This document shows positions 9,731-39,785 of a DNA stretch of 64,000 bases, piece after piece. This DNA comes from Pseudobdellovibrionaceae bacterium (lineage in GTDB: Bacteria; Bdellovibrionota; Bdellovibrionia; Bdellovibrionales; UBA1609), in the NCBI GenBank assembly GCA_947444305.1, contig CANEZP010000010.1, positions 62,001 to 126,000 on the forward strand, read 5' to 3'. The notes beneath the pieces were generated by a model. The model was not told the origin of the DNA. It made no database searches and saw nothing but the letters and a program-made list of their open reading frames with translations. The first letter of the stretch is position 1. Each line of letters begins with the position of its first letter. Position numbers and translations under genes: made by a program.

Positions 9731-9814
9731 GCCCGGGTGGTGGAATGGCAGACACGCTGGTCTTAGAAGCCAGTGCCGTAAGGTGTGCAGGTTCAAGTCC
9801 TGTCCCGGGTACCA
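9731..9814 (+). tRNA. tRNA-Leu (anticodon UAG)
   Basis: An 84-base tRNA including encoded CCA. The acceptor GCCCGGG pairs with CCCGGGT, the anticodon arm CTGGT/GCCAG encloses loop CTTAGAA (anticodon TAG), there is a long variable arm as expected of class II tRNAs, and the T arm reads GGTTCAAGTCC. Sequence downstream (9867-9909) is shared with the other tRNA-Leu locus at 39.2 kb. Confidence 0.95.
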
Positions 9815-9866
9815 AATCTTCTCAACTTCTATGTTCGGCTGCGCCTCACCATTCTCAGCTTGGCTG

Positions 9867-9909
9867 TTGTGTTGTTCGTCTTCGGCTCACTGTTCGCGCA
9901 AACGCTCAC
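9867..9909 (+). repeat. 43-bp repeat in the 3' flank of tRNA-Leu (copy 1)
   Basis: Forty of 43 bases match 39319-39361, which lies at the same place downstream of tRNA-Leu(CAG); a shorter part recurs at 39750-39785. It contains CTTCGGCTCACTGTTCGCG. Possible meanings are a processed tRNA trailer, a repeat that targets tRNA genes, or the remnant of a common ancestral insertion. Confidence 0.75.
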
Positions 9910-9910
9910 C

Positions 9911-39176: not shown

Positions 39177-39263
39177 GCCCGGATGGTGGAATTGGTAGAC
39201 ACGCAGGTCTCAGAAGCCTGTGGCCGTAAGGCCGTGGAGGTTCAAGTCCTCTTTCGGGCACCA
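39177..39263 (+). tRNA. tRNA-Leu (anticodon CAG)
   Basis: An 87-base class II tRNA with encoded CCA. The acceptor GCCCGGA pairs with TTTCGGGC's last seven bases, the anticodon stem CAGGT/GCCTG encloses CTCAGAA (anticodon CAG), and the variable arm and T arm GGTTCAAGTCC are normal. Its 3' end lies inside the 99-bp direct repeat described below. Confidence 0.95.
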
Positions 39264-39354
39264 AAACTTCGGCCGACTCTTGGTCGGACTTCGTCGCTCC
39301 CCAGATTCAGTTTTGCTATTGTGTTGTTCGCCTTCGGCTCACTGTTCGCGTGAA
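39256..39354 (+). repeat. 99-bp direct repeat, left copy (tRNA-Leu 3' end plus flank)
   Basis: This block begins with the last bases of tRNA-Leu (GGGCACCA) and includes a CCGAC/GTCGG hairpin and CTTCGGCTCACTGTTCGCGTGAA. It is identical over all 99 bases to 39687-39785. Such duplication of a tRNA 3' end is what site-specific integration or tandem tRNA-locus duplication leaves behind. Confidence 0.9.
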
Positions 39355-39361
39355 CGCTCAC
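39319..39361 (+). repeat. 43-bp repeat in the 3' flank of tRNA-Leu (copy 2)
   Basis: It matches 9867-9909 downstream of tRNA-Leu(UAG) at 40 of 43 positions, partly overlapping the 99-bp repeat. See the copy at 9867. Confidence 0.75.
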
Positions 39362-39686
39362 GATTGTTGGCTCGCCACCGGCTCGCTGTTCGCGCGAACG
39401 CGAACTTTGGGTGCCCGAAAGAGGACTTGAAGCGAGGGAGCGGCCATGTTGAACGCGCGAGCGTTCGGCATGGTACGGCAGGCAGGAAGCCTGACGTAGC
39501 GACCGAGGTGGGGCCGCGCAGGAAGGACGCAGGATGCGTCCGCCCGTAGTGGCCAAGCCGAGCGCACCACACTTCCTATCGAATTCATTGCCTTCGTTGC
39601 TCGTCGCCCGGCTTGTGCGGCTTGCTGATCAGCAAGCCTCCGCGCCGAGCTCCTCGCGCCTCGACACTGAATCCGCTAGAAAGTGT
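39355..39686. other. Non-coding, hairpin-rich insert between the 99-bp repeats
   Basis: This stretch of 332 bases has no credible gene. It holds the palindrome GTTCGCGCGAAC (39388-39399), a 22-base inverted copy of the tRNA-Leu T-arm/acceptor end (39410-39431 against 39241-39262), a hairpin GAACGC-GCGA-GCGTTC with a GNRA-type loop (39451-39466, extended by CCATG/CATGG), GGACGCA-GGA-TGCGTCC (about 39524-39540), and a perfect 20-base palindrome (39619-39638). It may be a structured RNA or the remains of a small element. Short frames here are back-translations of tRNA and repeats. Confidence 0.7.
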
Positions 39687-39785
39687 GGGCACCAAAACTT
39701 CGGCCGACTCTTGGTCGGACTTCGTCGCTCCCCAGATTCAGTTTTGCTATTGTGTTGTTCGCCTTCGGCTCACTGTTCGCGTGAA
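39687..39785 (+). repeat. 99-bp direct repeat, right copy
   Basis: It is identical to 39256-39354 but preceded by AAGTGT instead of tRNA sequence, so only the last bases of the tRNA are repeated here. It marks the right boundary of the insert. Confidence 0.9.

Follow-up and report, generated by a model that had tools for sequence, protein, structure and literature searches.

The E. coli tyrT repeats were described decades ago, and rtT (RttR) RNA (RF00391) is a released transcript. In the E. coli sequence, tyrV is followed by three 178-bp units, which comprise a trailer, an inverted arm (GGGGAAGGATGAGAAG), hairpins, and a direct arm (AATCCTTCCCCCACCACCA). Genomic islands and prophages that tyrosine recombinases have integrated at tRNA 3′ ends bear, on their far side, a direct repeat of the tRNA end, with the crossover in the T-loop. 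REP/BIME elements, which are linked to RAYT transposases, are short, gene-free, and palindromic, and occur many times per genome. TRIM elements contain no genes; their terminal direct repeats are short, and next to these comes a stretch complementary to a tRNA 3′ end. tmRNA and other tRNA-like RNAs are larger molecules whose 5′ and 3′ ends come together to close an acceptor/T-stem helix ending in CCA.

Here, we analyzed a stretch of 64,000 nt (referred to as the window) from the genome of a Pseudobdellovibrionaceae bacterium (G000; contig CANEZP010000010.1, positions 62,001 to 126,000). At the tRNA-Leu(CAG) gene of the window, two direct repeats of 99 nt (39256–39354 and 39687–39785) enclose a gap of 332 nt. 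As stated in the initial annotation, the repeats are 100% identical, the left one opening inside the acceptor strand of the tRNA and the right one carrying only GGGCACCA of it. Their starts lie 431 nt apart, and the locus amounts to 1.23 copies of a 431-bp unit that opens with the tRNA end. Each 99-bp repeat is a direct copy of the tRNA end plus trailer, and the parts follow one another in the order tRNA, class A trailer, inverted copy of the tRNA end, module B, decayed direct copy split by class C, and class A trailer (Table 1).

Table 1. Features of the tRNA-Leu(CAG) locus, in positions of the window
Feature	Position	Strand	Evidence and remarks
tRNA-Leu(CAG)	39177..39263	+	ARAGORN; Rfam RF00005 52.7 bits; CCA encoded
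Class A trailer, copy 1	39264..39361	+	R1 match L099:462-563, 93.6 bits; covariation
Incomplete third copy (87%) of the final class A hairpins	39372..39401	+	Repeat comparison (family D2)
Inverted arm	39401..39431	+	31 nt, 94% complementary to 39241-39271 (inverted pair I1)
Module B, conserved structured RNA	39421..39564	+	R3 111.1 bits, E=1.8e-25 in genome
Degenerate direct arm CAAGCCGAGCGCACCA, copy of tRNA end	39554..39569	+	Sequence and fold; comparison with intact arms elsewhere
Class C, 117-nt imperfect palindrome	39570..39686	+	Self match; fold
Final tRNA bases GGGCACCA, opening the right 99-bp repeat	39687..39694	+	Repeat comparison
Class A trailer, copy 2	39695..39785	+	Same as copy 1 up to 39785; R1 L099:893-994, 73.1 bits

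Copy 1 of the class A trailer begins with a helix from the first base after CCA, continues with more hairpins, and ends in the GNRA-like hairpin GCG-TGAA-CGC; the GNRA-like hairpin reported earlier is this covarying GCG-TGAA-CGC/GCC-CGAA-GGC hairpin of the tRNA trailer. The inverted copy of the tRNA end was likewise found, although at 31 nt rather than the 22 bases first given. It lies 47 nt inward from the left repeat and is antisense to the T-loop, the T-stem, the 3′ strand of the acceptor, CCA, and the first trailer bases. In the family described below, the arm copies at tRNA-Leu(CAG) stem from its final 21 nt (39243–39263). The R3 match of module B takes in the inner portion of both arms, and the RNA fold of this region (39409–39569) has z=-5.5. 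The palindrome around GCTTGCTGATCAGCAAGC is real and forms the center of class C. Because class C is bordered by GCACCA (39564–39569) on one side and GGCACCA (39688–39694) on the other, it may be a secondary insertion into the direct arm, later than the entry of B. No second copy of class C was found in the genome at E≤0.01; partial matches occur in two other genomes (G054 and G037). The insert is gene-free: its ORFs are overlapping chance frames, and Rfam at the gathering score reports two tRNAs in the window and nothing else. No integrase was found among the three neighboring proteins tested (TauE, a MutS_V protein, and a beta-helix protein).

Class A is not confined to this tRNA gene. By Rfam, the genome has 38 tRNA genes, and we examined the surroundings of all of them. 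Model R1 of class A (23 pairs, of which 13 vary on both sides) matches 15 places at 11 of the 38 (two matches, with E 0.22 and 0.69, omitted); in the whole genome, it also matches C4:228153 and three places at C7:123282–123701. Since R1 contains CCA, the CCA before class A matches is partly built in. At 9731–9910 of the window, the trailer of tRNA-Leu(TAG) is likewise of class A (86.8 bits with R1), and a direct repeat of 207 bp (82%) lies 205–681 nt behind this gene. In alignment A1, class A shows the hairpin motif TG(G/T)TC-3 bp-loop-3 bp-TC(C/A)C twice, the first occurrence having a covarying K-M pair, and this motif is possibly a protein-binding site. The pair types of class A show no G-U excess (1 G-U versus 6 A-C). 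A class A pattern matched neither the wider collection of genome contigs nor viral contigs. In G001, a genome of the same genus, loci L112 and L114 have near-identical flanks and a common short coding-like stretch, ending exactly at CCA plus class A; ARAGORN found no tRNA in either. Another trailer family, with stretches 84–93% identical, is common to tRNA-Ser(TGA), tRNA-Ser(CGA), and tRNA-Arg(CCG) (L090, L092, and L087).

Two displaced groups of class A bear the tails of tRNA-Met and tRNA-Asp (pairing by eye). These two tRNA genes lie 36 and 57 kb upstream, respectively, on the same strand, and have no class A of their own. The copy at C4:228153 (L121) follows CGCAACCA, which is the end of the tRNA-Met at C4:191782. 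Behind tRNA-Asp, a tyrosine recombinase is encoded (PF00589, E=1.5e-7; L071:497-1843, contig C7), and a class A array with Asp tail and antitail (L126/L128) lies 57 kb downstream of this tRNA. An integrase island at tRNA-Asp probably pushed this array away, and a second island probably displaced L121. As to an integrase elsewhere in the genome, the tRNA-Asp island is probably integrase-bearing, but it is a phenomenon separate from the cassette of the window.

Between the 99-bp repeats lies module B, a structured RNA element of ~130 nt. Covariance model R2, built from five B elements of this genome with the arms left out except for the terminal CGAA, matched 16 of 57 relatives at E≤0.1. ARAGORN placed a tRNA in 14 of 23 R2 loci: on the same strand 55–154 nt upstream in 12, on the opposite strand in L202, and ~1.2 kb upstream in L220. 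The nine loci with no tRNA are mostly weak (L203–L206, L211, and L212), plus L197, L216, and L219. A second covariance model, R3, was built from 12 B elements of three families. In the genome of the window, R3 gave 11 matches (E<5e-8 for ten of them), located immediately after eight tRNA genes, those for Leu(CAG), Ala(GGC), Arg(TCG), Arg(TCT), Pro(GGG), Pro(TGG), Val(TAC), and Asn. At E≤0.01, R3 found B in at least 88 of 368 genomes and at least 55 of 181 genera of the phylum; these counts, from a scan with strict filters and at most eight candidates scored per genome, are lower bounds. In 39 genomes reached via other loci, R3 gave three weak matches (best E 0.0084).

We combined the 60 best-placed R3 regions with the earlier loci into a set of 99 loci with 111 matches at E≤1e-5 (the B set), within which most of the 12 building sequences of R3 lie. 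A tRNA or tmRNA stands upstream on the same strand in 91 of the 111 (within 250 nt in 83; median distance 66), and 31 kinds of tRNA, counting tmRNA, are represented among the 89 copies within 400 nt of one. Twenty copies had no tRNA by ARAGORN; one of these was rescued by Rfam (L293), at least three are at the ends of contigs, and several terminate in an apparent tRNA tail with CCA, as judged by eye. At the gathering score, Rfam reported nothing convincing over A or B in the window or in sets of 14 and 15 further loci, nor did it at E≤5 in six loci (L068, L072, L083, L091, L098, and L099). The sole oddity was a PsrR1 match in L107, overlapping a doubtful class A match. A known Rfam family was rejected as the identity of A or B, since no convincing match appeared in the loci searched. 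A phage or plasmid origin was likewise rejected, as a B pattern had no match in viral contigs, a B element none in phages, and positions 39401–39700 none in plasmids. Titles and abstract openings in the literature, in a coverage that leaves out most subscription journals, described no such family.

On both sides of every B stands a copy of the final ~21 nt of the tRNA that precedes it, inverted on one side and direct on the other, as scored on 89 copies. Against the end of its own tRNA, the inverted arm had a median score of 11, versus 5 against the ends of other kinds (median 5 and maximum 8 for the shuffled region), and it beat every other tRNA kind in 52 of 89 copies. For the direct arm, the scores were 19 versus 5.5, and every other kind was beaten in 67 of 89. 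Considering the first B behind each tRNA, 56 of 81 direct arms had at most 4 mismatches in 18 positions. Counted back from A76, identity of the direct arm runs for 21 nt in 30 of 55 cases, for 18–20 nt in 19, and for 22 nt in 6, which places the usual edge between T55 and C56. This direct copy from the T-loop on is present in the family and degenerate in the window, and the trailer copies that follow it vary in length among loci. In the window, the B family, and E. coli alike, the repeat unit starts from the 3′ terminus of the preceding tRNA and takes in its trailer. We also considered the inverted arm as a guide RNA, as in IscB-like systems. Because the same module stands behind 31 kinds of tRNA or tmRNA with matching arms, the initial reading of a small, gene-free cassette using tRNA ends is well supported. 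It is likely that tRNA-Leu is followed here by one copy of an RNA cassette that carries no gene and spreads from one tRNA gene to others, and the recurrence of the element suggests a small mobile element that customizes itself to the tRNA in front.

We then asked on which strand the fold of B is selected. The R3 structure has 34 pairs, 29 of which show changes on both sides, with a covariation of 0.614 versus 0.214 when shuffled (0 of 500 shuffles reach it) and 0.10–0.12 in slid controls. Module B thus has the conserved secondary structure, with covariation beyond controls, that is expected of a new RNA family. The inner helices contain 153 G-U versus 14 A-C pairs in 3041 cells of an alignment fitted to the model, which favors G-U; the MAFFT alignment A5 gives 27 versus 7. 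Per sequence, G-U is more frequent in 86 of the 111 B copies and A-C in 4. Since selection on the opposite strand would show as A-C, this excess indicates that the fold of B is selected as RNA of the tRNA-sense strand. The arm pairs show no clear RNA signature (24 G-U versus 17 A-C), and therefore look copied, not kept as RNA pairs. Intrinsic-terminator-like hairpins separate the tRNA from B in 34 of 81 loci (1.0 when shuffled), so transcription of B probably depends on read-through from the tRNA promoter.

To compare the copies with one another, a tree of B was built with the arms removed (111 rows, 121 columns). Genome labels required 69 changes on this tree, versus a shuffled mean of 95.8 and minimum of 90, whereas tRNA kinds required 64, versus a shuffled mean of 72.6 and minimum of 67 (500 shuffles). 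Measured against these shuffles, B sequences cluster by genome much more strongly than by tRNA kind, although kind has some signal. Gene conversion between fixed copies, rather than insertion, could account for part of this clustering by genome. The B elements at a tmRNA (G097) and a tRNA-Glu (G099) are 0.039 apart, and their arms differ, each being cognate. Similarly, in genus g82, closely similar B elements stand behind tmRNA and the tRNAs for Glu, Val, Thr, and His, with locus-specific arms. At tRNA-Leu(CAG), B is present in six genomes (G000, G044, G049, G237, G305, and G313) and absent from four (G001, G002, G047, and G055). In G001, the same gene, TauE, stands upstream of tRNA-Leu(CAG) (53% identical) and the element is absent; the flanks of this empty site have diverged from those of the filled site. 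An insert-free site therefore exists, and the state that would have refuted the cassette reading, with the repeat arrangement in all relatives, was not found.

The strongest alternative is a resident, vertically inherited small RNA gene of the rtT type that undergoes unequal crossing-over and gene conversion in place and spreads rarely, its arms staying matched to the tRNA through conversion or template switching. The three repeats of E. coli tyrV/tyrT, with an identical order of parts, would fit such a gene, as would the tandem arrays with identical copies at L263, L255, and L251, the selection on B at the RNA level, and the fact that tRNA kind takes fewer changes on the tree than in any of the 500 shuffles. 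We nevertheless consider it unlikely: the tree is far better explained by genome label, B is patchy at a single tRNA such as tRNA-Leu(CAG), and near-identical B elements occur at tmRNA and tRNA-Glu.

Considerably less probable is a remnant of tyrosine-recombinase integration at a tRNA, in which the att repeats were left and the element later shrank. The direct arm does run from the T-loop past CCA, like the identity blocks of att sites, and this genome has the tyrosine recombinase after tRNA-Asp with Asp-tailed class A copies 57 kb away. An inverted cognate copy, however, is not a feature of an att site; one integrase could hardly serve 31 targets, each such element having one target tRNA; B is conserved as RNA; and none of the three neighboring proteins tested is an integrase. 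The footprint of integration at a tRNA that was originally suggested is therefore weaker in its usual, integrase-based sense.

Two further alternatives appear very improbable, to the same degree. A hairpin DNA element moved in single-stranded form by a REP-associated Y1 transposase would account for a palindromic, gene-free, multi-copy element, and Y1_Tnp occurs in 229 of 368 genomes, including G000, but it is found in 47 of 88 B-positive versus 182 of 280 B-negative genomes, the one-strand G-U excess points to RNA, and direct target copies are unexpected in such elements. A retroelement-like origin, with the inverted arm as primer-binding site and tail plus trailer as terminal repeats, as in eukaryotic miniature LTR elements, would match the arm complementary to the tRNA 3′ end shortly past the left repeat, the terminal direct repeats, and the RNA-level selection; against it, no candidate RVT_1 protein was found in G000 despite its ten B copies at E<5e-8, and RVT_1 occurs in 30 of 88 B-positive versus 98 of 280 B-negative genomes. 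Since neither enzyme co-occurs with B, reverse transcriptase and Y1 transposase were both rejected as helpers. With the inner module and the arms found independently in many genomes, plain duplication by chance or assembly error appears untenable as the principal cause.

From the anatomy, RNA-level selection, and distribution of B, we infer how a cassette spreading among tRNA genes might move and act. B would spread within a lineage from one tRNA gene to another, entering in the T-loop between T55 and C56 of the copied tRNA end. When B reaches a new tRNA gene, the terminal ~21 nt of that tRNA would be duplicated on either side of it, with an antisense copy to the left and a sense copy to the right; these two copies lead us to propose fold-back copying of a nicked target strand as one way in which the arms could be made. 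Arrays would then arise by tandem duplication of tail, trailer, and B. Once transcribed by read-through from the tRNA promoter, the arms and B may adopt the shape of a tRNA-like acceptor/T stem with a terminal CCA, in which B replaces most of the T-loop. We tentatively propose, as a reading that may well prove too broad, that B represents a new class of mobile element: a protein-free RNA of ~130 nt that settles in tRNA and tmRNA ends at T55/C56 and rebuilds the last 21 nt of its target on both sides, antisense and sense, each copy being tRNA-like, with E. coli rtT as a distant or convergent example.

If this proposal is correct, B would be a phylum-wide structured RNA, missing from what Rfam 15 reported at the loci searched, and its niche would be the end common to all tRNA genes, to which it is tailored tRNA by tRNA. 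It would also provide a family context for the unexplained tyrT repeats of E. coli and a test case for inverted and direct target copies made with no encoded enzyme, and it might be a source of tRNA-like regulatory RNAs.

Among known systems, the layout of B is most like that of the E. coli tyrT/tyrV rtT repeats, which also consist of tRNA, trailer, inverted copy of the T-stem and acceptor, hairpins, direct copy of the tRNA end, and trailer. In the record examined, the E. coli repeats occupy one locus with one kind of tRNA, whereas B occurs at 31 kinds, and the stretch between the matched arms measures 85 nt in E. coli versus 127 nt in the R3 model. R2 gave no match to the tyrT/tyrV repeats, R3 matched the rtT repeats in the arms only (11 bits), and RF00391 matched neither the window and 15 B loci at the gathering score nor six loci at E≤5. 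Thus, the E. coli repeats resemble B in layout, but not detectably in RNA. The tyrT-tyrV spacer (L221:1374-1407, minus strand) scored 14 bits with R3, above the rtT repeats themselves, and is perhaps a remnant of the same kind. Unlike the islands and prophages integrated at tRNA genes, the B cassette is gene-free and ~130 nt long, carries an inverted cognate arm, adopts an RNA fold, and is found at many kinds of tRNA. Unlike REP/BIME elements, B is bound to tRNA genes and has cognate arms and an RNA-strand signature, with no link to Y1_Tnp. B also differs from TRIM in being bacterial and in standing behind the very tRNA that it matches, with no reverse transcriptase found in G000. Finally, unlike tmRNA, B has an acceptor that is a copy of the neighboring tRNA, and B itself can stand behind tmRNA.
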